Assembly (NCBI GenBank): GCA_014191195.1
Contig: BJGZ01000013.1
Location: forward strand, 24,492 to 74,688
Length of the DNA: 50,197 nucleotides
Reading direction: 5' to 3'
Origin: Chlorobiota bacterium
GTDB lineage: Bacteria > Bacteroidota > Ignavibacteria > Kapaibacteriales > UBA961
Shown here piece by piece: positions 1-24,214 of this stretch (position 1 is its first letter; the number at the start of each line of letters is the position of its first letter). The position numbers were made by a program, and so were the translations under genes. The notes under the pieces are model-generated. The model searched no databases, was not told the DNA's origin, and saw only the letters and a list, made by a program, of their open reading frames with translations.

Positions 1-635
1 AGTTGCACCATTGATACCTACTGTTGTACCATTTAAGGTTAATGTACCAGTATTACCAATTGTTGTATTTGCTGCACCAGTTGCATTGATATTTGTTGCA
101 CCTACTACTGTAGTTGCACCTGTAATATTTGTTGCGCCTACTACTGTAGTTGAACCTGTAATATCTGTTGCATCGGTGATCGTTACATTTCCAGTTGAAT
201 TACTGATAACGCCTTGTGCATTTAATGTACTTGCTAATGTTGTTGCACCGGTTACATTTAATGTATTACCAAGTGATGTTGCACCTGTAACTGTTCCAGT
301 TCCACCTACACTTAAGTTAGTTGTTACTGTTTCTGAACCTGTTACTGTTGTTGCACCTGTAATACTTACTGGACCACTTGCTGTGATTGCATTACCTGCA
401 CCTGAATTAGTAATCATTACTGTTGGCTCACTACCTGAGCTTGTAGCTACAATTGCTCTACCTGATAGCGCTTCTGCATTAAATGCATGGCCTGTATCAG
501 CTGGATCTGCTGTATTATCTGTATTTACTGCTCTTAAAGCATAACCACCATTTGTTGATCTTGTAAATACTGTAGTTGCTGCTGTTAATGTACCACCTAC
601 ACTCAAATTGCCACCAACTGTTGTATTACCAGTTA
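1..635. repeat. Long direct repeat, copy 1 (pairs with 1309-1943)
   Basis: Line-by-line comparison shows no difference from 1309-1943 over 635 bp, at an offset of 1308 bp (436 codons, in frame). The match ends at 635/1943. Copy 1 may continue left of the window. Confidence 0.9.
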
Positions 636-3600
636 CATTTAATGTACTTGATAATGTTGTTGCACCAGCTACAGTTGCTGTACCACCAACACTTAAGTTA
701 GATGTTACTGACTCTGTTCCTGTTACTGTAGTTGCACCATTGATACCTACTGTTGTACCATTTAAGGTTAATGTACCAGTATTACCAATTGTTGTATTTG
801 CTGCACCAGTTGCATTGATATTTGTTGCACCTACTACTGTAGTTGCACCTGTAATAGTAACAGGGCCAGTTGCTGTGATTGCATTACCTGCTCCTGTATT
901 TGATACTGATAATGTTGTTGTATTACCAGCTGCTGTTGCTGATATCGCATTACCACCATTAACTGTAGTACCTGTATTTGAGAAGGTTGCTGTAGGTTGT
1001 TGATCAGTTGCTGTTGCAACAAGTGCTTTACCACTATTGGATGTCAAGGTTAAGCCTGTGCTTGCACCTGGAAGAGTATTATCTGAATTTGTTATCGTTA
1101 CTGTTGATGCTGCTGCTGCATTTGATGTAAATGTTGATGCACTTGATACTGCACCACCTACTGCTAATGCACCACTTACTGTCTCTGAACCACTAACTGT
1201 TGTATTACCAGTTACATTTAATGTACTTGATAATGTTGTTGCACCAGCTACAGTTGCTGTACCACCAACACTTAAGTTAGATGTTACTGACTCTGTTCCT
1301 GTTACTGTAGTTGCACCATTGATACCTACTGTTGTACCATTTAAGGTTAATGTACCAGTATTACCAATTGTTGTATTTGCTGCACCAGTTGCATTGATAT
1401 TTGTTGCACCTACTACTGTAGTTGCACCTGTAATATTTGTTGCGCCTACTACTGTAGTTGAACCTGTAATATCTGTTGCATCGGTGATCGTTACATTTCC
1501 AGTTGAATTACTGATAACGCCTTGTGCATTTAATGTACTTGCTAATGTTGTTGCACCGGTTACATTTAATGTATTACCAAGTGATGTTGCACCTGTAACT
1601 GTTCCAGTTCCACCTACACTTAAGTTAGTTGTTACTGTTTCTGAACCTGTTACTGTTGTTGCACCTGTAATACTTACTGGACCACTTGCTGTGATTGCAT
1701 TACCTGCACCTGAATTAGTAATCATTACTGTTGGCTCACTACCTGAGCTTGTAGCTACAATTGCTCTACCTGATAGCGCTTCTGCATTAAATGCATGGCC
1801 TGTATCAGCTGGATCTGCTGTATTATCTGTATTTACTGCTCTTAAAGCATAACCACCATTTGTTGATCTTGTAAATACTGTAGTTGCTGCTGTTAATGTA
1901 CCACCTACACTCAAATTGCCACCAACTGTTGTATTACCAGTTAATGTAGTATTGCCTGCTACTGATAAATCACTTCCAGTACCAAGAGTTACATCACCAC
2001 CACCTGTTACTGATATACCACCACCTGTAATACTGATAGCTGTACTTGCTGCACCTCTTGCATTATTAAATAATGCAGTTGGAAATCCTGGTGCTACTGA
2101 ATCATTATTTTCTACTCTTAATGATGTTTGAATATAAGGTGTGGCGCCATCAACATCATAACCTAATATTGTTTGACCTAATGGTACACTTAAAGCTACT
2201 CCACCAGTAATTAAGTTACGTAATTCAGCTGCTACTGCATTTGCATTGTTAACTGTTGCACCAATTGCACCACCAGCTTGTGCTGAATTTGCATTAACTT
2301 CAAAAGCATAGGTTGATTCATTTGTATTAGGTACTTGTGAAACAACTGATAATACTGCTCCACCACCAGCAGTTAGACGTGTAAATTCTACAAGTGGTTG
2401 TGAAGATGAAGCTGCTGCTGCACCTTGACTAATTGTAAATGCACGTGAAAGATTATTTGAGCTATTTGAAACAATGTCCAAAACATTTCCAGAACTGCTG
2501 CTACCAGTATTATTTATTGATACATTCGAATTAACTGGATCGACTTTAAAGAAATCTTGAGTAGTTACAGATATTTTTGGTCCAACAACAAAGTTTCCTG
2601 TTGTTGAATTATAATACATTCTTGTTCTTGAAGTTTGATTATCTGAACCGATAATTAAACCACTCATTGTTCCACCACCTGTTATACCTGCATGGTTTAG
2701 TTCATTTCCTAATTGGAATAATGGAATATTATTTCCGGAAACTGTAGTCCCTTCTAAGTAGCTGTTAACCTGTACATTACCAAATGTTTGTAATGCATAT
2801 TTACCAGCTGCTCCACTATTTGCAATTCTTACTGTAGAATAATCTGCTTTTGCAGTTCCAGAGCCATTATCATTACTGCTTGTAATGTTCATTGCTCTTG
2901 CATTTGTAGATCCAGTATTTGTATTATTTATCGTAGATGAATATCCTGTATTTGCTGATGATACTTCTAATGCTGTACCATTTGCACCTGTTGCTAATGA
3001 ACTGATTGAAACAGCTGGGGCAACACTTGTTGTGCTTGTACGGCTTACTGATAAACCTGTACCAACACCTGCTTGATTTACTGTGACACCTACATTTGGT
3101 GCAGTAGAATTAGCATTTACAACAACAACATTATTTGTGCTATTGCTGATTGTTGTTAAACCAGTGATTGTTGTTGGAGCTGTTACACCAAGTGCATTAC
3201 CAACCATTGTAATTGAATTAGATGCATTACCAATCGTTGTATTTCCTTCTGAAGCACCATCATTAATAGTTGTTATACCATTAATATTTGTTGCGCCATT
3301 TACATTATTGGTTGTTCCTGTTACTGTATTGGTTGTTCCTGTAATTGTTACATTACCTGTATTGCCAATTGTTGTTGAGGCAGCACCTGTTGCATTGATA
3401 CTTGTTGCACCAACTACAGTTGCACCACCATTTACATTTGCACTTCCTGTTATAGTTGCATTTCCACCAACACTTAAGTTAGTTGCAATTGTTTCACTGC
3501 CAGTAACACTTGAATTACCACCTACTGTTAAATTACTTCCAGCACCAAGTGTTAAATCACTTCCACCGCTTAATGTTACATTACCACTTGTTACACTTAA

Positions 3601-6600
3601 TGCATCTTGTGTGGTATTAGCATTTGCTATGGTAACTGTTGGGCTGATTGCACTATTATTTGAAGCATTAATTGCTGTTCCTGTAACTGCAATCGCTCTA
3701 AATCCAGTACCAGTCGCTGTGTTTTCTGCTGTTAATGTATTACCTGCTGTATTACTTGTAAATACTGTTTGAAGCGCTTGTAATGTACCACCAACACTTA
3801 GATTTCCAGTTACTGTTTGATTACCAGCTACTGTGGTTACACCTGATGATGTAATTGTTGTATTGGTAGCATTTATGGAAACATTGCCTGTATTACCTAT
3901 GGAGGTATTACCTGCACCTGTTGCATTAATAGAAGTATTTCCAGTAACGGTTGTTATACCTGTTAAAGTTGTTGGACCATTTACCGCTAAACTTGTATTT
4001 AAGGTAGTTGCACCTGTATTTACTAATGTTCCTGTTAATGTAGTATTTCCACCTACTGTTAAATCACTAGAAGCACCACTGATATTCACATCACCTATTG
4101 CTTTTAATGCAATACCAGAAACATGAATATTGTGTAAGTCTAATGTTGCTGCAGTTGGGCTATTATTATCACCTTCAATTGCAGAACCTGTGATTGCAGT
4201 TGCTTTAATTGCTTCGCCAGAACCTGCATTGTCATTATTATTTACAATTAAGGTATTTGTATTTAAAGCACTAGTTGTTGCAGTAGTTGTACCATTAATA
4301 GCATTTGTACCATTAATTGTATTTGTTGTACCATTAATTGTAACATTGCCAGTATTTCCAATAGTTGTATTTGAAGCACCTGTTGTATTGATATTTGTTG
4401 TACCACTAACAGCTACTGTACCACCTATCATAGTTAATGTATTGCCGGTATTTCCAATAGTTGTATTACCTTCTGCAGCACCATCATTAATAGTAGTTAC
4501 ACCATTAATATTTGTTGCGCCATTAACTGTATTAGTTGTCCCTGTAATTGTGACATTACCTGTATTACCAATTAAAGTATTTGCATTGCCTGTTGTATTT
4601 ATTGAAGTAGCACCTGTTACACCAACAGTAGTACCTGTTACAGTTACACCGCCTGTTACATTACCAATTGAAGTACTATTTGTACCAGTTGTATTAACAT
4701 TCGTTGTTCCTGTAATGGTATTTGTTGTTCCTGTAATAACATTTGATGTACCGCTTAATGTATTTGTACCACCATTCAATGACACTGTCGATAAGCTATT
4801 ACCAATTTGAGTAGCAGCTGCACCAGAAGTATTAATTGTTGTTGCACCCAATACATTTGTTGCGCCAGATACGCTAATATTTGTACCAGCAACTGTTACA
4901 TTGCCTGTATTTCCAATATTAGTATTTCCAGCACCAGCAGTATTTATTGAAGTATTTCCAGTAACTGTTGTTACGCCATTAACACCTACTGTATTACCTG
5001 TTAATGTTAATGCATCAGCTGTATTACCAATAGTTGTTATGCCATCATTAGCTGTTGAATTTATTGTTGTAGCACCATTTACATCAAATGTTGTTGCATT
5101 TACATTCACGGCATTATTCAAATTACCAATGTTTGTATTACCACTATTTGATGCTACATTGATTGATGCACCACCAATTGAGGTGATTCCACCATTAAAT
5201 GTTGCAGCGCCTGTATGAGTACTTGTACCTGTTAATGTTGAATTACCAGTTACATTTAATGTACCTCCAATTGCAGTGTTTCCAGCAATTGTTCCAGTGC
5301 CACCAACACTTAAGTTAGCTGTTACTGTTTCAGAACCTGTTACTGTTGTTGCTCCATTAATGCCTACTGTAGCACCTGTTAATGTTAAGGTACTTGCACT
5401 ATTACCAATTGTGGTACTTGCTCCTGTGCCGGTTCCAGTCGGAATTGTTGTATTTAATGTAAGTCCATTACCACGGATATCAGTTGTATTTCCAGCATTT
5501 CCAATGTCTGTTTTACCTGCACTTAAAACACGATTAATTTGAGTTCCACCCTCAACATTTAATGCTAATACACTGCTACCAGATGTTAATGCTACTAAAC
5601 CTTCTCTAGTAGTAGTTAATCCAGTATTTACAACAAGACTACCATCAATCACTGCACCATTCGTTGTAACCAATAATTGATTATTTAATGTTGTGGTACC
5701 GTTAACTGTTGTTGGTCCGTTGACTAATAAACTAGTATTAAGTGTAGTAGCACCAGTGTTAACCAATGTGCCTGTAACTGTTTCATTACCTGTTATTGTA
5801 GTATTACCTACTATACCTGTTGCACCTGTGATTGTAGTTGGACCAGTAATGCCTACTGTACTACCAGACATTGTTAATGTATTAGAACCATTACCAATTG
5901 TTGTATTGCCTTCTGAAGCACCACTATTGATTGTTGTAATACCATTAACATCTAATGTATTATTTACTGTTGTTGCGCCATTTAATGTTGTAGCACCTGT
6001 TACTGTGGTTGTACCACCTACATTCAAATTGCTACCTGCATTTAATTTTACATCGCCAGCAGTTACTTGGATTGCATTACCACCTACACCTGCATTGCTT
6101 GCTAAGATGGCTGCTTTTGTTGTACTTGAATTTGAGGCTTCTATTGCATTACCTGTTGCTGCTACTGCTTGGAATGCTTTTCCTGTTGATGTATTCTCTG
6201 CTTTTAATGATGCACCTGGATCTGCTACACCAGATGTAAATATTGTTTGTAATGCTGTTAATGTACCACCTACACTTACATCGCCTGTCACTGTTTGATT
6301 ACCTGTAATTGTTGTATTACCTGTAATTGTTGTTGGGGCTGTAATACCTAATGAACTACCTTTTAATGTTAAGATATTTCCTGTATTACCTATGGAGGTT
6401 GCACCTGAAGCAGCTGTTGTATTTACTGTTGTTGTACCAGATACATCTACTGTACTACCTTTGGCAATAAGTGTATTATTACCATTACCAATTGTGGTAG
6501 TTCCTGAGCTAGATGTAGAGTTAATACTTGTATTACCTGCTACTGTTGTAACACCAGTTAAATTGGTTGCGCCATTTACATTCGCGCCACCATTCATGGT

Positions 6601-9600
6601 TGCTAAACCTGTTACTGTTTCTGTTCCACTAACTACTTCTGATGCTACTGTTGTTGCACCTGCATTTAATGAACCAGTTACAGTTTCATTGCCTGTAATT
6701 GTTGTATTTCCTACTATTCCTGTGGCACCTGTAATTGTAGTTGCACCAGTAATGCCTACTGTATTGCCACTATTACCAATTGATGTATTTCCTTCTGCTG
6801 CACCTGTATTAATATTGGTTACACCATTAATGTCAATTCCTGTTGTTGTGGAATTACCATTAAGAGTAACGATACCAGTTGCATTACCTATTGTTGTATT
6901 ATTATTACCTGTTGCATTAACATTTGTTGTACCTACAACTGTGGTTGCGCCATTTAGATTAGTTGCACCATTTACTGTTGCACCACCATTCATGGTTGCT
7001 AAACCAGTTACTGTTTCTGTTCCATTAACTACTTCTGATGCTACTGTTGTTGCACCTGCATTTAATGAACCAGTTACAGTTTCATTACCTGTAATTGTTG
7101 TATTTCCAACTATCCCTGTAGCACCAGTAATGGTTGTTGCACCATTGATACCTACTGATCCACCTGTTAATGTTAGGGCATCTGCTGTATTGCCAATAGT
7201 AGTGATACCATCATTGGCTGTTGTATTTATTGTTGTTGCGCCATTTACATCAAATGTTGTTGAATTAACATTCACTGCATTATTCAAATTACCAATAATT
7301 GTTGCACCGCTATTGGATGCTGTATTAATTGATGCACCACCAATTGAGGTGATTCCACCATTAAATGTTGCTGCGCCTGTATGAGTACTTGTACCTGTTA
7401 ATGTTGAATTACCAGTTACATTTAATGTACCTCCAACAGATGTAGCGCCTAATGATGAAGTACCTGCATTTAGTGTTCCTACTGTTGTGTTTCCACCTAC
7501 TACAGTACCACCAATTGATACATTACCTGTAACTGTTTCATTGCCTGTAATTGTTGTAGCACCAGTTATATTAGTTACACCATTAATGCCTACTGTATTA
7601 CCAGATAATGTTAATGTATTAGAACCATTACCAATTGTAGTATTGCCTTCTGCAGCACCATTATTGATTGTTGTTGTTCCATTAACATCTAATGTATTAT
7701 TTACTGTTGTTGCGCCATTTAATGTTGTAGCACCTGTTACTGTGGTTGTACCACCTACATTCAAATTGCTACCTGCATTTAATGTTACATTACCACCAGT
7801 TACTTGGATTGCATTACCACCTAAACCAGCATTTTTAGCAACAATCGCTGCTTGAGTTGTGCTGGTATTAGATGCATCAACTGCATTACCTGTTGCTGCT
7901 ACTGCTTGGAATGCTTTTCCTGTTGATGTATTCTCTGCTTTTAATGATGCACCAGGATCTGCTACACCAGATGTAAATATTGTTTGTAATGCTGTTAATG
8001 TACCACCTACACTTAAGTTACCAGTTACTGTTTCATTTCCAGTTAATGTTGTATTACCTGTCATTGAAATAGTAGCGCCACTAAGTGTTAACAAATCACC
8101 AGTATTACCAATATCTGTATTATTTGCAGCAGATGTGTTAAGTGCATTAATTCTTGTTGCACCCTCAACTACTGTTTGACCATTAATATTCGTTGTATTA
8201 TTTACTGTAGTAGGACCATTAAAGGTAGCTGCACCAGTATGTAAACTTGCACCTGTAATTGTAGTATTACCAGCAATGCTAACATTACCAGTAACTGTTT
8301 CATTACCTGTTAAAGTTGTATTTCCAGTTAAAGATAATGTGCCAGTAGAATTACCAATTGATGTATTTGATGTTCCACCAGTATTGATACTTGTTGTACC
8401 AGTAATACTTGTAGGTCCATTAACAGTTTCACCACCATTTAATGTAGTTAAACCAGCAACTGTTGCTGTTCCAGCAACTATTAAGTTTGTACCTACAGTA
8501 GAATTACCAGTAACTGATTCATTACCACCTACAATCAAATTGCTATTGCTGTTTAATGTTACATTACCACCAGTAACTTGAATTGCATTACCAGTAGCAT
8601 TACCATTAGATGCAATAATAGTTCCATTAGTTGCACTTGAATTAGAAGCAACAATTGCACTTCCACTTTGAGCACCAGCTGTAAATGCACGGCCAGTACC
8701 TGTATTTCTTGCTTCTAATGATGAACCAGGATCTGCAACATTACTTGTGAATAATGTTTGAAGCGCTTGTAAAGTACCACCAACACTTAAGTTTCCACTA
8801 ACTGATGAATTACCATTTACTTGTGTATTACCAGTAACTGTTGTATTACCACCAAATGTAGTATTACCAGAAACACTTAATGCAGGTCCACCTGCATTTG
8901 TATTTGTAATAGTTACTGTTGGTTGTATTAATGATGATGCAATAGCATTAGTATTACCATTAAGATTTGTAGTTCCATTAACAGTAGTTGTATTATTGAT
9001 TGTAGTTGCACCAGCTAAGGTTGTTGCACCTGTAACTCCAAGAGTTCCACCAATATTTGTTGCACCTGTTTGTGCATCTACTGTCATTCTTGATGCATTA
9101 GCACCTACTTGTAAACCACCACCAACTTGATTAGCTACAAAAACACCATTTGAAAAACCAGATGATGGATTAGTTATTCCAGTACCAACTTGAACATTAT
9201 TATCACCAGTAGTTAAGATACTATTGATTTCAATATTACCATTTGTACGAAGTGCTAATCTATTGCCTGCTGCAGTATTACTAATTAATACTGTTGGAAC
9301 AGATGCTGTACCACTTGTAGCTTCAATTGCATTTTGTCCAGTTCCATTTTGAGTTACTACTAAAGCGTCTGCATTAGCATTTGTAACTACTCTCATACCA
9401 GGAGCTGTTGAAGATGTTCCAGAAATAGTTACTTCTACACCAGGATTATTATTACCTGAATTATCAAATGCTTTGGTAACAGAAACGCCAGAACCAGTAC
9501 CACTATGTGTTACTGATAAACCAGAATTATTAGAAACTGGTGAACTCATCACAATATTAGCGCCTGTACCAGTACCACTATTATTGATATTTAAGCCTGT

Positions 9601-11796
9601 ACCAGAACCTGTGCGGTCTACATTAATTGCAGGAGCACTATTAATTCCTAGGTTTTGTGTAATATTTAAAGAAGTGCCAAGACCATTGCTTGCTAAGCTA
9701 GCAACAGAACCTGCACCTGCTTGTGTACCTGTAAATGACGATGTTCCTGCACCTGAATTAGAATTTACTGTAATACCATTACCAGAAATACCAGTTGTAT
9801 TTGTATTATTAATGCTGATACCAGCACCATTACCATTTTGAGTAATTCTTACAGCTTCTGATGCATTAGTTGAAGGAATAGTTACATCAACACCTCTGCC
9901 ACCAGCAGATGTAGCTGTAACTGCTGGGCCTGCAGCTGCAGATGCCGCTACGCCAGTTCCAGTTAAACTTGCTATTGCATTTACAGCAGTACCACCATTT
10001 GTTGTTGTTGCATTAACACCAAAACCAGAAGTAGATGTTGCATTAACACCATTACCTGAACCATTTGCTGTTGCAACTACTGCATTACCTGTACCAGATG
10101 TTGTACCACTAATTGCTGCACCACTACCTGTAGAAGCAGTAACACCAGCGCCAGATCCACTGTGAGTAACTGCAATACCAGCTACATTATTATTAGCACC
10201 TTGGGCTACTGTAATACCAGAACCAGATGTTGTTGTATTTGATACAGCAATACCTACTGTTCCTGCACCTACTGTATTATTATTAGCAATTACATTAATA
10301 CCAGAACCTATAGTACCAGGATGTGTAATTCTAGCAGCTGGGCCAGTTGCGAATGGGCTAACTGCAGCGTCTAATGCAATACCAGTATTAGTATTGATTT
10401 GAACACCAGCTCCAGTTCCTGTAGTAGTTACACCAACGGCTGCTGCTGTACCTGCATTAGTTACGGAAACTGCACTTGCTGTAGCATTAACATCTAATTG
10501 ATTTGCAACTAATGCATTTGCTGTAGATGCTGTGCTACGATTACGGAAAACTGCTGTAGGTGCATTACCGCTATTTGTTAAGCGGAACATTGCATTTACA
10601 CTAGTTGAAAGATTAATTGTTGTATCAGCATCAATTGGAAATGCGAGACTATCATTACGTGCCCAAGCTAATGCTGTACCATCAAAACGTAAAATTTGAT
10701 TACGTAAAGTAGGATTATTTAACCAGCCTTGGCGTCCACCAGCTTGACCATCAATACCAACTAATAAACGATTTGCACCAACATCAACAGTTGTATTAGC
10801 TGTTGCATTAGTTTCTGTTGCAAATGTTCTTGGGGTTAATTTTCTCCATCCAAGTGAAGTGCCATCCCAATGAAGTGCTGTATGAGGTAAAGCTGCTGTA
10901 GGAGCATCTAACCATTCCATTGAGTTAGCGCCTGTTCCCATGAGAAGTTTCCATGGTGCTACAGTGGTAGGAGTTGTTTTTAAATTTTCTGGAGTAATTG
11001 TGCTAAGAGCAATTTTATTTCCTGTTACAGAACGGTCTGCAAGGTTTGAATTAGAAATGCTTCCAGCAGCAATTTTAGTTGAATCAATTGCGCCATTTGC
11101 AATTTTTGGACGTGTTACAGCTAAGTCTGCAATACGATCTGTTTTAACTGCACTAACAGCAATTTTTGGATTAGGATAATCACCTGTTAAATCTCCACTA
11201 GCTGGGCCAGATGGAGGAAATTCAAGATTAGCAGAAAGTTTTGACTTGGTAATTGCTCCGTCAGCAATTTTAGAAGTTGTTATCGCTCCATCTTTAACAG
11301 TTGGGTTTGGATAATCACCAATCAAATCTCCACCTGCAACACCTGTTGGTGCTGCAAAATCTGCTCTCGTTGCATGGTCTGCATCTAATGCTCTTTTAGC
11401 TAATTTAGCTGTATCTGCATTGATTGCTGTAAATGCATAAGGAGCCGGTGTAAGACGTACTCTTACTACTGGCTCTGGAGCTGATTGAGGAGTTGTTGTT
11501 AACCAATAACCTTTATCAAATGCTAAATCTAAAGTCTTTCTTTCACCTAATACAGCACTGAATAAACCATTCTGTGTTTGCACAACATGATTTTCAGTGT
11601 ATAATGGGGTTCCACCAGATTCTAATTCATAAATCCTGAATGTTACATTATATGTATCATTTTTGACAGGAATATTATTTGCATCTGTTAAAACACCTTG
11701 ATAGGTTAAAAAACGCGGAACTTGTGCTTCTACATTGCTAACTGGTAATGCAAGCGCGCTTGAGGCGGCTAGACCAATAAGGAGACTTCTTCTCAT
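1..11796 (-). CDS. Giant repetitive exported surface protein, C-terminus beyond window
   Basis: The frame is open from ATG at 11796 to the left edge, exactly 3932 codons with no stop seen, so the gene is 3'-truncated. GGAG lies at 11806-11803, 7 bases before the ATG. Residues 1-25 are a signal peptide (MRRSLLIGLAASSALALPVS, then a cleavage region ending in EAQ). Next comes a head of about 90 residues (VPRFLTYQGVLTDANN, then YNVTFRIYELESGGTPLY), a module common at the N-terminus of tail-fibre-like FCB proteins. Residues 150-270 hold repeats such as GDLTGDYPNP and ADGAIT-SKIADGAI. The remainder is low-complexity Thr/Asn/Gly/Val/Ala repeat of the type GATTVTGTE, GNTTVGGN, LSVGGT, almost free of Cys and aromatics, with a hexapeptide-like beat suggesting a beta-solenoid stalk. 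I infer a surface adhesin or fibre. An S74-type chaperone or a sorting domain could lie beyond the window. It is probably co-transcribed with the T9SS cargo gene 51 bp upstream. Confidence 0.9.
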   Translation of the reverse strand, partial: MRRSLLIGLAASSALALPVSNVEAQVPRFLTYQGVLTDANNIPVKNDTYNVTFRIYELESGGTPLYTENHVVQTQNGLFSAVLGERKTLDLAFDKGYWLTTTPQSAPEPVVRVRLTPAPYAFTAINADTAKLAKRALDADHATRADFAAPTGVAGGDLIGDYPNPTVKDGAITTSKIADGAITKSKLSANLEFPPSGPASGDLTGDYPNPKIAVSAVKTDRIADLAVTRPKIANGAIDSTKIAAGSISNSNLADRSVTGNKIALSTITPENLKTTPTTVAPWKLLMGTGANSMEWLDAPTAALPHTALHWDGTSLGWRKLTPRTFATETNATANTTVDVGANRLLVGIDGQAGGRQGWLNNPTLRNQILRFDGTALAWARNDSLAFPIDADTTINLSTSVNAMFRLTNSGNAPTAVFRNRSTASTANALVANQLDVNATASAVSVTNAGTAAAVGVTTTGTGAGVQINTNTGIALDAAVSPFATGPAARITHPGTIGSGINVIANNNTVGAGTVGIAVSNTTTSGSGITVAQGANNNVAGIAVTHSGSGAGVTASTGSGAAISGTTSGTGNAVVATANGSGNGVNATSTSGFGVNATTTNGGTAVNAIASLTGTGVAASAAAGPAVTATSAGGRGVDVTIPSTNASEAVRITQNGNGAGISINNTNTTGISGNGITVNSNSGAGTSSFTGTQAGAGSVASLASNGLGTSLNITQNLGINSAPAINVDRTGSGTGLNINNSGTGTGANIVMSSPVSNNSGLSVTHSGTGSGVSVTKAFDNSGNNNPGVEVTISGTSSTAPGMRVVTNANADALVVTQNGTGQNAIEATSGTASVPTVLISNTAAGNRLALRTNGNIEINSILTTGDNNVQVGTGITNPSSGFSNGVFVANQVGGGLQVGANASRMTVDAQTGATNIGGTLGVTGATTLAGATTINNTTTVNGTTNLNGNTNAIASSLIQPTVTITNTNAGGPALSVSGNTTFGGNTTVTGNTQVNGNSSVSGNLSVGGTLQALQTLFTSNVADPGSSLEARNTGTGRAFTAGAQSGSAIVASNSSATNGTIIASNGNATGNAIQVTGGNVTLNSNSNLIVGGNESVTGNSTVGTNLIVAGTATVAGLTTLNGGETVNGPTSITGTTSINTGGTSNTSIGNSTGTLSLTGNTTLTGNETVTGNVSIAGNTTITGASLHTGAATFNGPTTVNNTTNINGQTVVEGATRINALNTSAANNTDIGNTGDLLTLSGATISMTGNTTLTGNETVTGNLSVGGTLTALQTIFTSGVADPGASLKAENTSTGKAFQAVAATGNAVDASNTSTTQAAIVAKNAGLGGNAIQVTGGNVTLNAGSNLNVGGTTTVTGATTLNGATTVNNTLDVNGTTTINNGAAEGNTTIGNGSNTLTLSGNTVGINGVTNITGATTITGNETVTGNVSIGGTVVGGNTTVGTLNAGTSSLGATSVGGTLNVTGNSTLTGTSTHTGAATFNGGITSIGGASINTASNSGATIIGNLNNAVNVNSTTFDVNGATTINTTANDGITTIGNTADALTLTGGSVGINGATTITGATGIVGNTTITGNETVTGSLNAGATTVASEVVNGTETVTGLATMNGGATVNGATNLNGATTVVGTTNVNATGNNNTTIGNATGIVTLNGNSTTTGIDINGVTNINTGAAEGNTSIGNSGNTVGITGATTITGATGIVGNTTITGNETVTGSLNAGATTVASEVVSGTETVTGLATMNGGANVNGATNLTGVTTVAGNTSINSTSSSGTTTIGNGNNTLIAKGSTVDVSGTTTVNTTAASGATSIGNTGNILTLKGSSLGITAPTTITGNTTITGNQTVTGDVSVGGTLTALQTIFTSGVADPGASLKAENTSTGKAFQAVAATGNAIEASNSSTTKAAILASNAGVGGNAIQVTAGDVKLNAGSNLNVGGTTTVTGATTLNGATTVNNTLDVNGITTINSGASEGNTTIGNGSNTLTMSGSTVGITGPTTITGATGIVGNTTITGNETVTGTLVNTGATTLNTSLLVNGPTTVNGTTTLNNQLLVTTNGAVIDGSLVVNTGLTTTREGLVALTSGSSVLALNVEGGTQINRVLSAGKTDIGNAGNTTDIRGNGLTLNTTIPTGTGTGASTTIGNSASTLTLTGATVGINGATTVTGSETVTANLSVGGTGTIAGNTAIGGTLNVTGNSTLTGTSTHTGAATFNGGITSIGGASINVASNSGNTNIGNLNNAVNVNATTFDVNGATTINSTANDGITTIGNTADALTLTGNTVGVNGVTTVTGNTSINTAGAGNTNIGNTGNVTVAGTNISVSGATNVLGATTINTSGAAATQIGNSLSTVSLNGGTNTLSGTSNVITGTTNTITGTTNVNTTGTNSTSIGNVTGGVTVTGTTVGVTGATSINTTGNANTLIGNTGNVTITGTTNTVNGATNINGVTTINDGAAEGNTTIGNTGNTLTMIGGTVAVSGTTNINTTGASNTTIGNTGNVTINGTTNTINGTNAINGTTTATTSALNTNTLIVNNNDNAGSGEAIKATAITGSAIEGDNNSPTAATLDLHNIHVSGIALKAIGDVNISGASSDLTVGGNTTLTGTLVNTGATTLNTSLAVNGPTTLTGITTVTGNTSINATGAGNTSIGNTGNVSINATNTTITSSGVTTVAGNQTVTGNLSVGGTLQALQTVFTSNTAGNTLTAENTATGTGFRAIAVTGTAINASNNSAISPTVTIANANTTQDALSVTSGNVTLSGGSDLTLGAGSNLTVGGNSSVTGSETIATNLSVGGNATITGSANVNGGATVVGATSINATGAASTTIGNTGNVTITGTTNTVTGTTNNVNGATNINGITTINDGASEGNTTIGNASNSITMVGNALGVTAPTTITGLTTISNSTNNVVVVNANSTAPNVGVTVNQAGVGTGLSVSRTSTTSVAPAVSISSLATGANGTALEVSSANTGYSSTINNTNTGSTNARAMNITSSNDNGSGTAKADYSTVRIANSGAAGKYALQTFGNVQVNSYLEGTTVSGNNIPLFQLGNELNHAGITGGGTMSGLIIGSDNQTSRTRMYYNSTTGNFVVGPKISVTTQDFFKVDPVNSNVSINNTGSSSSGNVLDIVSNSSNNLSRAFTISQGAAAASSSQPLVEFTRLTAGGGAVLSVVSQVPNTNESTYAFEVNANSAQAGGAIGATVNNANAVAAELRNLITGGVALSVPLGQTILGYDVDGATPYIQTSLRVENNDSVAPGFPTALFNNARGAASTAISITGGGISVTGGGDVTLGTGSDLSVAGNTTLTGNTTVGGNLSVGGTLTAATTVFTRSTNGGYALRAVNTDNTADPADTGHAFNAEALSGRAIVATSSGSEPTVMITNSGAGNAITASGPVSITGATTVTGSETVTTNLSVGGTGTVTGATSLGNTLNVTGATTLASTLNAQGVISNSTGNVTITDATDITGSTTVVGATNITGATTVVGATNINATGAANTTIGNTGTLTLNGTTVGINGATTVTGTESVTSNLSVGGTATVAGATTLSSTLNVTGNTTVSGSETVSGALAVGGAVSSASTFTSNAAAASTVTITNSDNTLPGASTGLTLTSNSGKALVATATDQQPTATFSNTGTTVNGGNAISATAAGNTTTLSVSNTGAGNAITATGPVTITGATTVVGATNINATGAANTTIGNTGTLTLNGTTVGINGATTVTGTESVTSNLSVGGTATVAGATTLSSTLNVTGNTTVGGNLSVGGTLTAATTVFTRSTNGGYALRAVNTDNTADPADTGHAFNAEALSGRAIVATSSGSEPTVMITNSGAGNAITASGPVSITGATTVTGSETVTTNLSVGGTGTVTGATSLGNTLNVTGATTLASTLNAQGVISNSTGNVTITDATDITGSTTVVGATNITGATTVVGATNINATGAANTTIGNTGTLTLNGTTVGINGAT
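616..856. repeat. Nested direct repeat, copy 1 (pairs with 1195-1435)
   Basis: 241 bp matching 1195-1435 without visible difference, at an offset of 579 bp (193 codons). It overlaps both ends of the 635-bp repeat, so this part of the giant gene is a mosaic of shuffled blocks. Confidence 0.85.
1195..1435. repeat. Nested direct repeat, copy 2 (pairs with 616-856)
   Basis: Second copy of the 241-bp block. It flows directly into copy 2 of the 635-bp repeat, sharing 1309-1435. Confidence 0.85.
1309..1943. repeat. Long direct repeat, copy 2 (pairs with 1-635)
   Basis: Second copy of the 635-bp block. Synonymous sites match too, which implies recent duplication or ongoing gene conversion rather than selection on the protein alone. 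Confidence 0.9.
4997..5272. repeat. Diverged direct repeat (pairs with 7163-7438)
   Basis: About 276 bp resembling 7163-7438 at an offset of 2166 bp (722 codons). There are scattered substitutions, with the last 110 bp nearly identical. It is older than the 635-bp pair. Confidence 0.7.
5849..6275. repeat. Diverged direct repeat (pairs with 7586-8012)
   Basis: About 427 bp resembling 7586-8012 at an offset of 1737 bp (579 codons). It includes one copy of the 'ADPGASLKAENTSTGKAF' cassette. Substitutions are scattered and no frame change is visible. Confidence 0.7.
6585..6725. repeat. Diverged direct repeat (pairs with 6981-7121)
   Basis: About 141 bp resembling 6981-7121 at an offset of 396 bp (132 codons), with only a few substitutions. 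Confidence 0.7.
6981..7121. repeat. Diverged direct repeat (pairs with 6585-6725)
   Basis: Partner of the block 396 bp to the left, in the same reading frame of the giant gene. Confidence 0.7.
7163..7438. repeat. Diverged direct repeat (pairs with 4997-5272)
   Basis: Partner of the block 2166 bp to the left, in the same frame. Confidence 0.7.
7586..8012. repeat. Diverged direct repeat (pairs with 5849-6275)
   Basis: Partner of the block 1737 bp to the left, in the same frame. Confidence 0.7.
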
Positions 11797-12944: not shown

Positions 12945-15758
12945 TTATTTTTTCTTTTTCTTTATTTTTTTTTCGAATTTAAATATATCAAGCATGTTAA
13001 TTTCTTTTTCTTTACTGATAATATTCTCAATTACAGAAGCCCAGAATGCATCTTTTTTGAATTCATATTCTTTTTGGATTAAAGAATACAATTCCTTTTT
13101 AATTGTAATTTCTTGATTTAAACACAATGTAGATATATCTTTCACGGTTACGCTTGAGTCTTTAAGTATTATAGCAGATGATAGATACAGTTTCATTTCT
13201 GTATTTACTCCATTCCCAAACAATATCTGCAAGTTATTAGTAATCAACTTTTTTGAATTCATTATCCCTTGTATGGCACTATTTCTTGTCAATTGAAATT
13301 CTGATTTATGTAAAAGTGACTTAAAAATCTGAGATACATTACTGGGAAATAATATACCTATTGAATATGCTGCCCTTGCCCTAACAGATTGATGTGTATC
13401 ATTTAGTAACTGTACTAATGTATCTATGATAATATGAGAAGTATCTCCAATTTCTCCTAATTGTTGAGCACACAAGGCTCTGATTCTCCAATCTTGATCA
13501 TTAGTATAAGAATATATATTTTCGATTGCTTTTTTTATTTTCAATTTACCACACATAGCTAATGCAAAAGTTTTTACTGCATATGTTTCTGATTCTAAAG
13601 AATCTAATAATATAGATTGTATTGTATCAGCATATGCCTCGTATAACTTTGGCAATAAATAGTCTAATGCCAGTCTCTCTCTTGGAGATTCTGTTCCAAA
13701 TTTTGTAGATAAGAATAATATTGCATCCATTCCTTTTGATATCAATGCATTTCTGGCTGGAATTACATTGTACTGATATTTTTGTGGTGCTGCTGATGCT
13801 TGAATAAATAAACTATCAATATTTTGTGATAAAGGTTCATTGATATTAGTTTGATTTGTAGTTGCAATTGATAATGTGCTAGGATGTAGAATATCCTGAT
13901 CTAAAAAAAGTCCAAATGTAGATTGAAGTGTGAATGAATTATTTTTTAATTGACTTCCATATATGTCTACACCATTTCCATCAGCAAAAATTCCAATCAT
14001 TCCATAATTTCTTCTGAAATCTGAATATCCCATAGTATTCGTTGTATTTTTAGCTATATAAGAATCACTTCCTATTAGATCTAAAAATATGGAAATTGCA
14101 TTTGCATTTCCTGCACCTAAAGAAAGGCTTTCAGCTTGATAACTATCATTTCCTGCTTCATCAACTAATATTCCACTTGCTATATCATGACCACAGCCCT
14201 GCGATACTCCATGAGATACATATATATCATCACCTTGCTTATCCCATAATAATCCTTGGGCCAAATGAACCCCAGAGCCTTGGGCATATTGATAGGCTTG
14301 ATATTTATCTTCTCCCTCAGCATCATATAATGCCCCAAATGAATACCAATAACCTGTGCCCTGAGCATAAATATCCGCTATATATGTGTCATTACCTCGT
14401 AAATCCAACAATAATGCAAAGCCTCCTGAGGCAATCGGACGATATCCCAATGCTGCTCCTTGAGCAAATGACTCATAATGTGCATCATATCGTAAGAAGT
14501 CTTGAAAAGGGCTTGCACATACATACGTATCATTACCTGTCTTATCAGCCAATATACCAATACCTTGGGTTGCTGCAAAAGCTTGTCCATGTGCATCTAT
14601 TGTATATGTATCATTGCCAGCATCATCTATGAATAAGCCAATTCCAAAAGAACCCATTCCTTGAGTATTTGAACCAGCTCTATATGTATCATTTCCATCA
14701 TAATCATGTAGATATCCAATACCAAAAACACCCGATGCTTGAGAAAAATTATGTGAATGATATAAATCATCACCTTGGACATCATACAATAATCCAGCGC
14801 CAAATAATCCAGAAGCAATCGTGAAATCGCCTCCTAAATACTTATCATTACCACCTAAATCTATAATACATTGTATTGGCTTTGTTAAAGCTTGTGCTTT
14901 ACCAGATATTGGAATATATGTATCATCTCCTCCTGGATCTAAAATAAAGATATAATCTCCCTGATACATATCATCGCCATAACTTCCAATGGCAATCATT
15001 CCATACTTAGTTTTAATTTTTATTGGTTCTAATGAGTTTTTATATACTTCATGCATTCCCTTGCTGATTTGAATCAGCCCTTCATATGTTCTAGCTAAAG
15101 ATAAACCATTAGAAATAATAGTTTTAGGAGATTCAGCCTCATTAAAAAATTGTTTAGATACAAATTGTCCTTGTATCTCAGCTGCTTTAAGTTCATAAAG
15201 ATTTGCAGATTCTCCGTCTTTTGTAATCATGATTATCGAATCTGCTTGGCTTACTAAAAATGTATTCTTTAATAATTCAAATCTAGATTTTTGCATATTT
15301 TGTATTGCAGATATCAAAGGCCCAATATATTGTCTAATTACAAAAGCTGTAGTCAAATTTGAAATCGTGTCTAATCCTAAACCCAATATCCCATCTAATT
15401 TTGTTGCAGAAATATTATCTGAAAGATATGCAGCATTATATTGTATTCCACCTGCATCGTTAAGCATCAATGAAAACCATTTATCTGCATTTGACGAAGA
15501 ATAGTCACTAAATAATTGAACATGGTTATTTACAATATCTCCCATGTCCATAGGTTTTTCAAAAAGACGTTTTTGTAATAATGATCGATGCTTGTCTATA
15601 CTTATAGCATCCCAATTCATAAACAAGTCTTTTCTTTGCATCTTTAACTTAAGTAAAGATGTATCTAATAATTGAAATGCTTTTTGATCAAAACCCTTTT
15701 GACCATACATAGATACAGAAAATGAACATGCAAACAATATGAATAGAAGTGCTTTCAT
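12945..15758 (-). CDS. Secreted 'GND-x-Y' beta-repeat protein with HEAT repeats
   Basis: About 937 residues. The signal peptide is MKALLFILFACSFSVSMYGQ. The first 260 residues match no family I know. Residues about 260-600 carry roughly 13 copies of G(N/D)D-x-Y (GDDTY, GNDKY, GNDTY, GDDIY, GNDSY) at a steady 26-27-residue step, with a shared core 'QG-x-G-x(2)-GIG-x-L-x-D'. This suggests a beta-helix with Asp-rich, possibly Ca-binding, turns. Residues about 690-870 hold HEAT-like helical pairs (DQDWRIRALCAQQLGEIGD; HQSVRARAAYSIG). The tail ends KKIKKKKK and no sorting domain is visible. ATG 15758 overlaps the TGA of the upstream DUF971 gene by one base; GTG at 15761 is an alternative start. 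The coupling suggests co-expression with DUF971, but no function can be stated. Confidence 0.85.
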   Translation of the reverse strand: MKALLFILFACSFSVSMYGQKGFDQKAFQLLDTSLLKLKMQRKDLFMNWDAISIDKHRSLLQKRLFEKPMDMGDIVNNHVQLFSDYSSSNADKWFSLMLNDAGGIQYNAAYLSDNISATKLDGILGLGLDTISNLTTAFVIRQYIGPLISAIQNMQKSRFELLKNTFLVSQADSIIMITKDGESANLYELKAAEIQGQFVSKQFFNEAESPKTIISNGLSLARTYEGLIQISKGMHEVYKNSLEPIKIKTKYGMIAIGSYGDDMYQGDYIFILDPGGDDTYIPISGKAQALTKPIQCIIDLGGNDKYLGGDFTIASGLFGAGLLYDVQGDDLYHSHNFSQASGVFGIGYLHDYDGNDTYRAGSNTQGMGSFGIGLFIDDAGNDTYTIDAHGQAFAATQGIGILADKTGNDTYVCASPFQDFLRYDAHYESFAQGAALGYRPIASGGFALLLDLRGNDTYIADIYAQGTGYWYSFGALYDAEGEDKYQAYQYAQGSGVHLAQGLLWDKQGDDIYVSHGVSQGCGHDIASGILVDEAGNDSYQAESLSLGAGNANAISIFLDLIGSDSYIAKNTTNTMGYSDFRRNYGMIGIFADGNGVDIYGSQLKNNSFTLQSTFGLFLDQDILHPSTLSIATTNQTNINEPLSQNIDSLFIQASAAPQKYQYNVIPARNALISKGMDAILFLSTKFGTESPRERLALDYLLPKLYEAYADTIQSILLDSLESETYAVKTFALAMCGKLKIKKAIENIYSYTNDQDWRIRALCAQQLGEIGDTSHIIIDTLVQLLNDTHQSVRARAAYSIGILFPSNVSQIFKSLLHKSEFQLTRNSAIQGIMNSKKLITNNLQILFGNGVNTEMKLYLSSAIILKDSSVTVKDISTLCLNQEITIKKELYSLIQKEYEFKKDAFWASVIENIISKEKEINMLDIFKFEKKIKKKKK

Positions 15759-16117
15759 CACTGTTTATTATCTTCCATTTGTGATAATTGCTCTAAATCT
15801 GAAAAAGACAATGTATATTTTTCAGACAATTGACGTAGTTTTTCCCACGTATAAATTCCTGTATGATGGCCATCCTTCCAATTTGCCTGAATACCATAAT
15901 TTCCTACCGGTATTAATGCTTCTAATTCATTCATACCCGGTAAAAATGTCTTTATTCCAAAGGAGATTCTTTGTCCCATAATTTCCTCCCCTTGGCATGC
16001 AGCACATGGACATTCCTCACGCATTTTTTCTAATTGAATTATATATTCTGATTTGTCTTGCCAAATTATCTTCAATAAATAAGGCTTTGGTCTTTCTATG
16101 GTAATTGGTGGATTCAT
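15758..16117 (-). CDS. DUF971 (GBBH-like N-terminal domain) protein
   Basis: 119 residues. The family hallmarks are present: a Cys cluster REECPCAAC near residues 34-42 and 'DGHHTGIYTWEKLRQL' near residues 82-97. This small domain is also the N-terminal part of gamma-butyrobetaine hydroxylase, where it binds zinc. Stand-alone versions are common in bacteria and often sit near iron-sulfur or cofactor genes, but their role is not settled. Its TGA overlaps the ATG of the downstream repeat protein, so translation of the two is probably coupled. Confidence 0.85.
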   Translation of the reverse strand: MNPPITIERPKPYLLKIIWQDKSEYIIQLEKMREECPCAACQGEEIMGQRISFGIKTFLPGMNELEALIPVGNYGIQANWKDGHHTGIYTWEKLRQLSEKYTLSFSDLEQLSQMEDNKQ

Positions 16118-16263: not shown

Positions 16264-17577
16264 TTAACCATAAATATATATCATCTCTGCAATAAATAAT
16301 ATGCATTGTGCAATTGGTAGAATATAATATTTGATTGATATATGGGTAGTTTTAGTGAAGGATAATAATGCTATAGCTATAATAAAAAAAGGTAATAAGG
16401 GCTCATGATATCTAGCAGATCCAAAAAAGACAATATGCACACATGTCCATAAGAATATAAACAATAATGACAGTTTTCCATATTCAGTAGAGGCCACATA
16501 AACAAGGCTATACCAACCATATAGTAATAAGATTAAACTAGGTAAAAGTGCTAATAATGAGAAATGGAATGGCACAGAAGCAGCTGTCTGCTTATAACTT
16601 TTATTATGAGTATCACTTGTTAAAAAAGATAATAACATGTACATATCTGAAGACCACATAAATCCTATTTTTTGGGGAATCTTTACAATGATTTTTAATG
16701 GATTTTCTATGATATATTGTAGGCCTAATGCATATCCAATTGAATCTCTTTGAATTTCATTTTTGATATTAATTAATTCAGGAGGTTCATGTGTAAATTT
16801 ATATGATCCGTTTGCTTGGTCATTATTACCTATCCAAAAATTTATTCCACCATTTGTTGTTAATTGGGGTTTACCAAAAACAACATAATTTCTAATCATC
16901 CAAGGTGTAATTGCACATAGAATCCCTAAGACCATTATGATAATAGATGGTATTACATGTTTATATAAAGATTTCTTTTTGTATAGATAAATTAGTAATA
17001 ATACAATAATGGGAATTAAAGCTGTTGGCCTTGTAAGGATAGAATAGCCCAGAATTATTCCAGAAATAAAATGCCAATACTTATTAGTTTTTTTAATTAA
17101 TATGTATGTACTTAGTAAAAGCAAAAGAGTACATAATGGCTCAGATAAAAGCAATAAGGATTGTCCAATTGTAACAGGAATAAAAAGCCAAATAAAAGCC
17201 CCCACTATAGCAGATTTTTTATGTGAGTTAATGAAGAGAATAATATGATAAATCAAATATCCTGACCATACAATTAGTAATGATTGAAATATTTGCCCTG
17301 CTTTATAAAATGGAAATAATGTATAAACTACACTCAATAAAAATGGATATCCAATCGGACGATATGCAGTATGGATAGTATCATATCCAAAAATACCGTG
17401 CTCTGAAATATTTAAAGCTAATATATGATAATCATAAGCGTCAGATAATGGCTGTTGATGTGTACTTACAATCAATAAAACCCGAATACCAAAAGCTAAT
17501 AATAATAGCCATAAGATTATATTCTTTTGTAAAAAGAAATTGTTTAGTAGCAATTTGATATGATTAAGTGTATTCAT
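16264..17577 (-). CDS. Membrane glycosyltransferase, GT39/ArnT-like (PMT_2)
   Basis: 437 residues with about 10-12 hydrophobic segments. The first long loop carries the acidic residues and pattern typical of polyprenyl-phosphate-sugar-dependent transferases: SDAYDYHILALNI with Asp46 and Asp49, then 'AYRPIGYPFLLS'. Such enzymes move a sugar from an undecaprenyl- or dolichyl-type carrier to a lipid or protein on the outer face of the inner membrane. The acceptor cannot be read from sequence; surface glycans of T9SS cargo are one possibility. It lies 146 bp upstream of the DUF971 gene on the same strand. The gap has only a weak inverted repeat (ATACCT-AAAAT-AGGTAT), so an operon is uncertain. 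Confidence 0.8.
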   Translation of the reverse strand: MNTLNHIKLLLNNFFLQKNIILWLLLLAFGIRVLLIVSTHQQPLSDAYDYHILALNISEHGIFGYDTIHTAYRPIGYPFLLSVVYTLFPFYKAGQIFQSLLIVWSGYLIYHIILFINSHKKSAIVGAFIWLFIPVTIGQSLLLLSEPLCTLLLLLSTYILIKKTNKYWHFISGIILGYSILTRPTALIPIIVLLLIYLYKKKSLYKHVIPSIIIMVLGILCAITPWMIRNYVVFGKPQLTTNGGINFWIGNNDQANGSYKFTHEPPELINIKNEIQRDSIGYALGLQYIIENPLKIIVKIPQKIGFMWSSDMYMLLSFLTSDTHNKSYKQTAASVPFHFSLLALLPSLILLLYGWYSLVYVASTEYGKLSLLFIFLWTCVHIVFFGSARYHEPLLPFFIIAIALLSFTKTTHISIKYYILPIAQCILFIAEMIYIYG

Positions 17578-17647: not shown

Positions 17648-18730
17648 TTAAGGAATATTACCAATAAGAGAGAATCTCATTGTATTACCCAAAGGATGAT
17701 TTTCTTCTGTTGGAATGATAAAACTGAAATCCATATTAAATACATCATAACGAATACCAGTACCGAAGGTAAAAAACCGTCTATTACCTACAGAAGCAGG
17801 CTCTGTAAAATAACCAGCCCTTAAAGCAACTACTTTTTCATACCAATATTCCATACCGAATGAAGATTCAATTCCACCAACTTCCCAAGCAGTAATAAAT
17901 GATTTTGGTATAGGATCATTTACCAAACTATCGCGTCTTACAAGTAATTTTGCGATATCAACAGCTAAAGTTAGTTCATTAAATTCATCTTCTAGAACTT
18001 TAAGTGAAGTACCAAGTCTTAAGGTAGTTGGTAGTGGGTCAGATACATTTAAATAGGTTACTTTAGGTCCAATATTAGCAAGATTAAAACCTAAGCCAAA
18101 TTTATCGCCAATATCCCATCCGAATAGATCAAGATTAGAGGGACGCCACAGCATACCTAAATCGAATGCAACACTTCTACCGATACCGTCGCCAGTGCCA
18201 CTTCCTTGTGCATTGACAGGTGCCCCGAGATTAGATTGAATATATTTTAATTGAAATCCAGCACCAATATCATCGGCTATCAAAGTGCCATAACCAAAAC
18301 CTAATGCAAACTCGAAAGAGCGAAAAGTATTAAGGACTTTTCCGCTAAAGTCTGTTCTTTTGAATTCGCCAAGATTCATCAGCATAAAATTCACATTAAT
18401 TGTCCCTTCTAGGCTAGGAACATATTGTCCATATGCTGCATGCGCATAAAACAAATCAGCATTAAATTGGGGCAACCATTTTGCATAAGCTAAACCAACT
18501 TTTCTATTTAATTGTTTTGTAGTTTCTGGCATTTGAAAGGCCAAGCCACCAACATTCCAATGAGTAGCATAAATATTATCGGCTAAACCAGTACCAACTT
18601 CTCCCATCCCATTTGCGCGAGAATCAGGAGAAATCGTAATGAATGGAACGGCAGCTTGTCCAAAAGCAATAGTTCCAGAGCATAGAACACAAGCAATAAT
18701 CTTGCTCACAACCCACAATAGTCTTTTCAT
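17648..18730 (-). CDS. porV: T9SS outer-membrane protein PorV (LptO family)
   Basis: 360 residues from ATG 18730, preceded by GGA seven bases upstream. An ATG at 18748 has no ribosome site and would put six residues before the signal peptide. Mature protein opens with 'AAVPFITISPDSRANGMGEVGTG', close to the PorV/PorQ consensus, followed by alternating beta strands of a FadL-like barrel and a C-terminal 'FSFIIP-x-EE-x-HPLGNTMRFSL' segment typical of the family. PorV receives cargo from the translocon and works with PorU in the attachment complex. It lies 39 bp downstream of porU. A PorQ/PorP-like paralogue is possible but less likely because of the porU linkage. Confidence 0.88.
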   Translation of the reverse strand: MKRLLWVVSKIIACVLCSGTIAFGQAAVPFITISPDSRANGMGEVGTGLADNIYATHWNVGGLAFQMPETTKQLNRKVGLAYAKWLPQFNADLFYAHAAYGQYVPSLEGTINVNFMLMNLGEFKRTDFSGKVLNTFRSFEFALGFGYGTLIADDIGAGFQLKYIQSNLGAPVNAQGSGTGDGIGRSVAFDLGMLWRPSNLDLFGWDIGDKFGLGFNLANIGPKVTYLNVSDPLPTTLRLGTSLKVLEDEFNELTLAVDIAKLLVRRDSLVNDPIPKSFITAWEVGGIESSFGMEYWYEKVVALRAGYFTEPASVGNRRFFTFGTGIRYDVFNMDFSFIIPTEENHPLGNTMRFSLIGNIP

Positions 18731-18769
18731 AAATATTCCATCTATCATTATTATATTAATTTGTCTTAA

Positions 18770-21700
18770 TTATCTAATCTTTAATATTTCATCTGTCATA
18801 CGCATGCTAGATCCATTAGCTGAATAGGCAATCACAGAACAAATATATAAACCAGAGCTAACCGCATTTCCATCATTATCTTTTCCATCCCATTCATAAA
18901 TCCATGAATGGAGTTCATTTTGGGTAACTTTATCAGATTTAATTAAAGCACCATTGACAGCAAAAATACGAATTTCGGCAAAGGTTGGTAAAGTTTGATT
19001 ATGATTAAATCTGATAGAAGTAGAATTTATCATTGGATTAGGATAAATACTTAATCCTTCAGTAATCATATTTGAATCATTATCTGCTAATCTAAAATAG
19101 GTTTCGGCTTCTGAATAATTATTCCATACATCCCAAGCTCTTACACGAACAGAAGTGGTTTGTATAGGAAGATTTAAGATTCTCTTTTGCGTTGTACCTT
19201 TTCTAGAATCAGTTATTTCTGTTTCGAAACCATCTGTTAAATCTACTGGTATATAGCTTGTATTGAACCAAGCTTCTATTTTATGTCCGATACCAGCACC
19301 TGTAGAATTTATACCAGTTTCATCGAATAAGTCTACAATCAAAAGAGGTGATTTTCTTATTAAATTTCCAGGTTGAAAAGTCCTATCGTCCATATAAACT
19401 TGTATTATAGGACCAGATTTATCAATATCATCAGATTGTTCAATACCACCTACTGTAAAAGCCTGTGAGCATCCTTTGGCAGAACTTCCTTGTTCTGGGT
19501 CATATGCATAACTAAACAATTTTCCTTTTTTATTAGAAAAGCTAATATCCTTTGGAATGACAAATGATGCGGTAAACGAGCCATCTTTTACAGGATAAGA
19601 ACTTCTATTTAAAACACCACCATTTTCTAGAATTTCATGGGTAGCATTGTCTTTTGGGTCAAATGCTTTTAACTGAATATCATGTTCTTTCATTGTTAAA
19701 AGTATTCTACCATTAAAGGAATTCAACTTGGTTTTATCAATCGACTTAATAATCTCACCTTGTATCTCTACTTTTTGCAAAGCTTTTACTTTGGGTAATA
19801 AAGAATCGGCGGGTAATGGAGTACTTTGTGGAATGTCGGAATTATTAATACTAAGAACTTGTACATCAAGATTTGGTATTTTCAAATGCATTGAAGGATC
19901 GCCCAAAATCAAATATTTTTCTGCATTATCATCATATAAATATTGTTTTGTTCTATATAATGCATCTCCAATGGATAGATAATCTCCATTAGCTTCTTTT
20001 GTAAAAAGAAATTTATAGTACATCTCGCAAATATCTGCATTTTGATAAGAGAATACTGGACGTGTTGCTGCAAATACTCCGATTGCTCCACCCCTTGTAC
20101 TTCTAATCAATTCCTCTGCTCCAGATTCTCTTTCTGCATCATCGAATCTTGCAAAATCACACGTTGCTGCGGTAAGATAGAAAAGCCTATCTTTATTTGT
20201 CATTTGAGGTATAGTTGTTTCTTTTTCAAAGATCCTTTCATGCGCCCAGAGTCTAGGACTTCCATGTCCTATCCAATTTAACAATACAGCACCTGTAGTA
20301 TTAATATCGGTTAAAAGTTGTTGCGTAACTGCTGGTTTGCGCCTTCCATTTGGTACATTTTCTACAGGATATTCAGCTAAATATATTTTTTTTAACTGCA
20401 TATCACTAGGAATTACAGTTGAAGCTAACATTTCTGATTGTTGAGTATGTTGAGTTCCATCAGATCCAACACCAACTGGGCCATCATCAGCAACCAAACA
20501 AACTGTAGTTTGCCATTGTCCTGGATCTGAGTTTTCTTCATAATGTTGTAATTTATCTACTAGTTCTAAGCCATTAATAGGTGAAAGAACCGGCATTCTA
20601 CCAGCAGAAATATCAACTTTGGCATCATTACCAATCGTTCTGGCAAAATAATCATCGATACAAGATGTAATGGTTGCATTAAATGATCCACATTCTTGAT
20701 CGGTTTGGTATGTAGGAACATAGTTAGTAGCAGCTAATTGAATGCCTCTATAATCATAATGTCCATCGCCCCAAAGCAATAAATATTGAGGCTTATTAGT
20801 CCAATAATTCAAAGCATACGATACATAATCTCTAATTGCAGTTATATCTGTTATACCACTAGAAAATTCATTATAGATTTGCTCTGTAGTCGCAATTTTT
20901 ACTGTTATTTTGCTAGTACTTTCTTTAAACTTTTTATACTTCTCGGCTGATTCCATTAAATCTGCATGAGTTATAAGAAGCATTGAAGCGCCATTTATAT
21001 CATGTCTTAAATTTGCAAAATCAGTTATAATCAGTTTTGGATTTTTAAATTCGGAAGCTAAAAAATATCTTTTAGCTTGATTATTATTTTGCATAGCACG
21101 AAAAATATACAAGCCACCTGTTACAGAGATATTTTGTAATAATTCTGGGTTTTTATCATCTGTAATATCGAATCCAAAAATCTCATTTCCTGAGAATTGA
21201 TTTATTGAATATTCAATTCCACCATTGATTGTAGAATCAGAAAATATTTCTAATTGATTAGAAGTGGCTGTAAATTCTCGTGGATAAAGAATTTCGAACC
21301 AATCAACAAATCCTGAACTTGTAGCACCAGCAGATGGATTTCTATAAGAAAACTTAAGAATACTTCTATTATCATTCGAAATAGTATTAGCTGGAATTGT
21401 AAAACTCTGTTCGCAAGAACTTATTGATTCTACATAATTATAATAACTGTCATAAGGATTTGTACCTAGAACATACATTGAATCAAAAACTGTATTATTC
21501 TCACTTATTGAGAAGTAACCAGTTTTAGTAGATTTATGTGATACACAATACCGATATGTAATTTCACCACTTCTTGATAATCCATGTAGTATCGTAGAAT
21601 AGTTAAGTGGAACAGTGCTTTCTACAGATTTACCATACCACGTTCTTCCAGATGGGGCTGCAAGGGCATTATATAATTCATCTTCAGTAAATACTCTACT

Positions 21701-24010: not shown

Positions 24011-24214
24011 TCCATATTTGATAGTAAATATTGATATAATTATCTGATTTATCTATTACATTACCTCTATTGCCGTAAACTTGGCATAATCCTTGTAATC
24101 AATACTTATTGCTAATAATAACAACAATGTTTGTTTTAAAACTTCTATAGTTTTGTTGTTTTAATAGTTAGAAGTTTCACGTTGATTTTTTTATTCAAAT
24201 ATAGAGTTAGCGAT

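Follow-up and report, generated by a model that had tools for sequence, protein, structure and literature searches.

The locus and its genes

The window, that is, the whole stretch of 50,197 nt analysed here, spans positions 24492-74688 of contig C13 in the source genome (G000), which belongs to a little-studied bacterium of the Kapaibacterium group; 24 kb of the same contig lie to its left. Its first quarter is dominated by a minus-strand frame that runs for 3932 codons without a stop, starts at an ATG (position 11796), has a ribosome site, GGAG, 6 nt ahead of that codon and encodes an N-terminal signal peptide, as the preliminary description of this DNA had reported. The longest open frame in 300 Markov-model sequences of matched composition was 181 codons. 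The third-position bias between the internal repeats of the gene gave a mixed picture, and we draw no conclusion from it.

The plus-strand Pro/Val-rich frames that had also been described opposite this gene were found, the longest being 330 aa at 6392-7384. They are best read as shadow frames of the Thr/Gly/Asn-rich minus-strand gene, because the head encoded by the minus frame is 49-56% identical to the heads of related genomes and because an intact relative in genome G003 (2885 aa) shows similar Pro/Val-rich antisense frames. The features of the locus are listed in Table 1.

Table 1. Features of the fibre locus in window coordinates.
Feature	Position	Strand	Basis or remark
Giant fibre gene, residues 1-3932	1..11796	-	Open reading frame; extends past the window edge (scaffold gap)
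Exact duplicate of 1309-1943	1..635	.	Sequence comparison; the first 127 nt, which flank the gap, occur three times in the window (start, 730, 1309) and once across the gap
Shaft, residues 871-3932 in the window	1..9186	-	Thr/Gly/Asn-rich repeats, six-residue period
YPNP spacers and DUF5907-like/tail-fibre-like stretch, ~residues 162-279	10960..11313	-	Profile matches
Head domain, ~residues 26-129	11410..11721	-	Remote similarity to NF053851, the MAT N-terminal domain
Signal peptide, residues 1-25 (MRRSLLIGLAASSALALPVSNVEAQ)	11722..11796	-	By inspection; orthologue N-termini similar
Small partner gene, 194 aa	11848..12432	-	Signal peptide, TIGQ...GFW domain, T9SS type A sorting domain
HEAT-repeat protein	12945..15761	-	Kept beside the pair in other genus members; in G009 by sequence resemblance
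Membrane glycosyltransferase-like protein (PMT_2)	16264..17577	-	Domain match
PorV, T9SS outer-membrane protein	17648..18748	-	PorV_fam, 273.6 bits (cut-off 90)
PorU, T9SS sortase	18770..22858	-	798.8 bits (cut-off 420)

Length of the giant protein

The frame runs off the window, as had been noted, because the window starts directly after a 10-N scaffold gap (C13:24482-24491). Given that the contig ends flanking this gap share an exact 127-nt overlap, the break appears to be an assembly artefact inside a repeat, where a short-read assembler joined two contigs. Extending the contig leftwards, a check that the preliminary description had proposed, carried the frame on for 1227 codons to a stop, in a phase kept by direct overlap of the contig ends, and a strong terminator follows the stop codon beyond the gap. 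With such an overlap the giant protein would comprise ~5117 aa, ~1185 of them past the window edge. Because window positions 1-635 repeat 1309-1943 letter for letter, neither the number of repeats in the draft nor the true length of the protein is certain; the latter may be about 5,100 residues or more.

Matches to the head were obtained in 46 of the 61 genomes searched, the source genome included, and Candidatus Kapaibacterium sp. MYJ.27 carries the head domain. Complete relatives of the giant protein, each an intact frame on a single contig and with the same head, were found in G003 and in G009 (3080 aa); the G003 relative alone also shares the C-terminal tip.

Architecture of the giant protein

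The GDLTGDYPNP-type spacers and Thr/Asn/Gly repeats ascribed to this protein are present, with YPNP at residues 162 and 207, and the head and spacers match PHROG tail-fibre families (best E=5.7e-21). In the shaft, the lag-6 correlation was 0.213, whereas shuffled sequences reached at most 0.056, revealing a six-residue period. Structure models, with pLDDT values of 59 and 46, were of low confidence; that of the head was beta-rich in its moderate-confidence part, and the monomer model of shaft residues 900-1159 (260 residues) showed short strands six residues apart. A PDB comparison of the head model returned common beta-sandwich arrangements only (best Z 7.5), which we do not take as homology, a Foldseek search with the same model gave nothing under 0.001, and phmmer with the head sequence gave chance-level matches only. 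The shaft repeat model gave no match. The C-terminal tip, comprising the last 80-140 residues, is 35% identical to that of the G003 fibre, and its profile gave no credible match in the PDB (E 0.055) and none in Pfam.

The head matched the N-terminal domain of mosaic adhesive trimer (MAT) fibres (NF053851) with 27.4 bits (E 2.5e-6) over positions 9-75 of 162, about half of the profile and below the curated cut-off of 60 bits. Weak matches of this kind, mostly covering approximately positions 3-78, recur through the order, where 77 of the 123 genomes searched have one in a head; the 14 control genomes have none. This points to a distant sequence relation between the head and the MAT N-terminal domain. 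A match above the cut-off occurred in a single one of the 123 genomes (G044). The giant protein would appear to work like a MAT fibre, yet it lies outside the family by the family's own cut-off.

The preliminary description had suggested a C-terminal anchor of the Peptidase_S74, YadA or T9SS-sorting type, none of which was found. Over the C-terminal 1227 aa, Pfam gave no Peptidase_S74 match up to E=1, and neither Pfam nor NCBIfam detected a T9SS sorting domain, whether of type A or of type B; a Pfam search of the giant protein gave no YadA anchor either. As for the very long surface fibre proposed there, the PHROG matches, the MAT relation and the six-residue period give good support to a fibre of this length that carries a tail-fibre-like head, while its location at the surface is what we infer.

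T9SS genes around the fibre gene

Immediately downstream of the giant gene lies the gene for PorZ (261.9 bits, cut-off 260), and upstream follow, in order, the small partner protein, the HEAT protein, the glycosyltransferase-like protein, PorV and PorU. The PorV gene scored 236.6 bits against the equivalog PorV model, slightly below its 250. The order PorV, HEAT protein, small protein and fibre is common to G001, G003 and G006, as judged by sequence resemblance, and this PorU/PorV neighbourhood of the fibre gene was seen in one genus only. The link of the giant gene to the T9SS, which the preliminary description lacked, resides in its neighbouring genes.

The T9SS sorting domain is matched 87 times in the source genome, so that finding a T9SS-sorted neighbour by chance would be no great rarity, and the weight rests on the recurrence of the pair. 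One such match lies farther along the window, at the C-terminus of a 1566-aa frame (24182-28882; match at C13:53131-53361).

A recurring upstream partner

A gap of 51 nt separates the small partner gene from the giant gene downstream of it. Its sorting domain scored 28.8 bits against TIGR04183, over the cut-off of 23, and together with the signal peptide recognised by inspection this type A domain marks the protein as a probable T9SS cargo. The TIGQ...GFW domain of ~60 residues had no Pfam match and weakly resembled the NCBIfam model CPR_pilus_PamT, with E values of 3e-5 to 5e-4, far below its cut-off; a literature search found no paper behind that model.

Across 123 genomes of the order, a head gene lay directly downstream of the partner in 26 of the 30 best loci, and two of the four exceptions were cut by contig ends. 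By mapped positions among the matches listed, a detected head followed within 1500 nt in at least 52 of 108 short partners versus at least 1 of 42 long forms; over all 150 partners, the matches listed place a head upstream in at least five, and no opposite-strand head appears among them. Random placement would give 0.06 partner-head links for the first 70 partners. The linked cases span six families of the order (f1, f2, f3, f4, f6 and f7), and in the source genome each of the two strong copies of this domain is followed by a head gene. Outside the order the TIGQ...GFW domain is rarer, being found in nine genomes of the phylum sample, with a head downstream in one of the nine loci examined.

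Proposed model and alternatives

Taking these observations together, we lean slightly towards a surface fibre of MAT-like build that has the T9SS-sorted small protein as its anchor. The giant protein would be a probably trimeric surface fibre with a conserved N-terminal base, a repetitive beta shaft and a small C-terminal tip, entering the periplasm via its predicted signal peptide and then crossing the outer membrane. The sorting domain of the 194-residue protein would direct its secretion by the T9SS; the attachment complex of PorU, PorV and PorZ, whose genes surround the partner gene, would then process it, leaving it fixed on the outer surface. In Porphyromonas, proteins with a type A CTD are attached by the T9SS to anionic LPS (PMC8545088, PMC9143113). 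The TIGQ...GFW domain of the small protein may hold the fibre base, so that the fibre could project outward for attachment or cell-cell contact. The broader idea of a two-gene display in Kapaibacterium-type bacteria, with a T9SS-sorted surface adaptor capturing the base of MAT-like giant fibres that have no sorting signal of their own, is put forward tentatively, as something we would not yet call probable.

The strongest alternative, which we consider rather unlikely, keeps the same fibre but treats the upstream T9SS protein as independent cargo of the operon, the head being anchored to another outer-membrane component. Many heads, including other head genes of the source genome, have no TIGQ...GFW partner, the domain also occurs beside genes other than heads, and the surface element that holds the N-terminal base of the Bdellovibrio MAT fibres is unidentified (PMC10769870), all of which would suit an independent cargo; however, the order and spacing of the pair recur in six families, beyond loose co-location. 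That the giant protein stays in the periplasm or is released, as a matrix or sheath component that forms no projecting fibre, seems improbable: its want of an outer-membrane anchor or sorting domain would agree with such a fate, but the tail-fibre and MAT-type head, the tip domain and the T9SS attachment genes on both sides argue for a fibre.

An assembly artefact, in which misjoined repeats simulate a gene of a length that does not exist, is very improbable despite the scaffold gap with its exact overlap and the exact internal copies, given that the intact single-contig relatives carry the same head and that the uncertainty concerns length. Least probable of all is a prophage tail fibre, for which the PHROG matches in the spacer region speak, but against which stand the N-terminal signal peptide, identified neighbours that are T9SS and other cell genes, and the conservation of the locus with the same neighbours across the genus.

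Comparison with known systems

The anchored surface fibre that we favour most closely resembles the MAT fibres of Bdellovibrio bacteriovorus (PMC10769870; NF053851), with which it shares a signal peptide, a related N-terminal domain, a tail-fibre-like beta shaft, a C-terminal tip and the presence of several copies per genome. By contrast, MAT fibres are typically ~1000 aa, about one fifth of the length estimated here, and the N-domain match of the giant protein stays under the family cut-off, its tip has no recognised fold, and its gene sits in a T9SS context beside a T9SS-sorted partner. Length, T9SS locus and conserved partner are what make it unusual. Phage tail fibres with YPNP-type spacers and repeats of the DUF5907 kind (PHROG 892 and others) share this spacer and repeat region with the head, but the giant protein differs from them in its signal peptide, its chromosomal T9SS locus and the fact that no phage structural genes were recognised alongside. 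SprB of Flavobacterium is a giant surface adhesin of the T9SS. Like SprB-type adhesins, the giant protein would be a repetitive surface protein of great length made by an organism with a T9SS, but searches of it found no sorting domain of either type A or type B. A literature search on Kapabacteria fibres returned nothing relevant.

The conserved T9SS-sorted neighbour offers, in another phylum, a testable candidate anchor for the MAT-type base and ties phage-like fibres to the T9SS. If true, the two-gene display would reveal the kind of surface element that a MAT-type base binds.

Further fibre and repeat genes

Repeat genes break the G000 assembly at several places. A head-type repeat frame of 1097 aa with many YPNP repeats runs off the contig end at the start of contig C12 (L024:2-3295), and another of 1116 aa, likewise rich in YPNP repeats, does so at the end of contig C24 (L025:4115-7463). 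Although both contigs end in head-type repeats, the ends do not overlap each other, and we therefore rejected joining the two frames into one gene. Short-read assembly cuts giant repeat genes, and their lengths are easily misjudged.

In genome G025 (contig C128), a related fibre of 3758 aa (L070:3786-15059) contains 22 DUF5907 repeats and matches to LbR_Ice_bind. Its C-terminus gave weak S74-like and T9SS-sorting matches, both below cut-off, which would be in keeping with, but does not prove, a connection between fibre and sorting signal. The only NF053851 match over the cut-off in the order (111.8 bits) lies in a 205-aa frame at G044:C94:6401-6868 and may represent a transfer or a contaminant. 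The second pair of the source genome, on contig C1 (L026:2643-7260), consists of a small sorted protein followed by head proteins of 512 aa and 796 aa, and is also present in Kapaibacterium MYJ.27.
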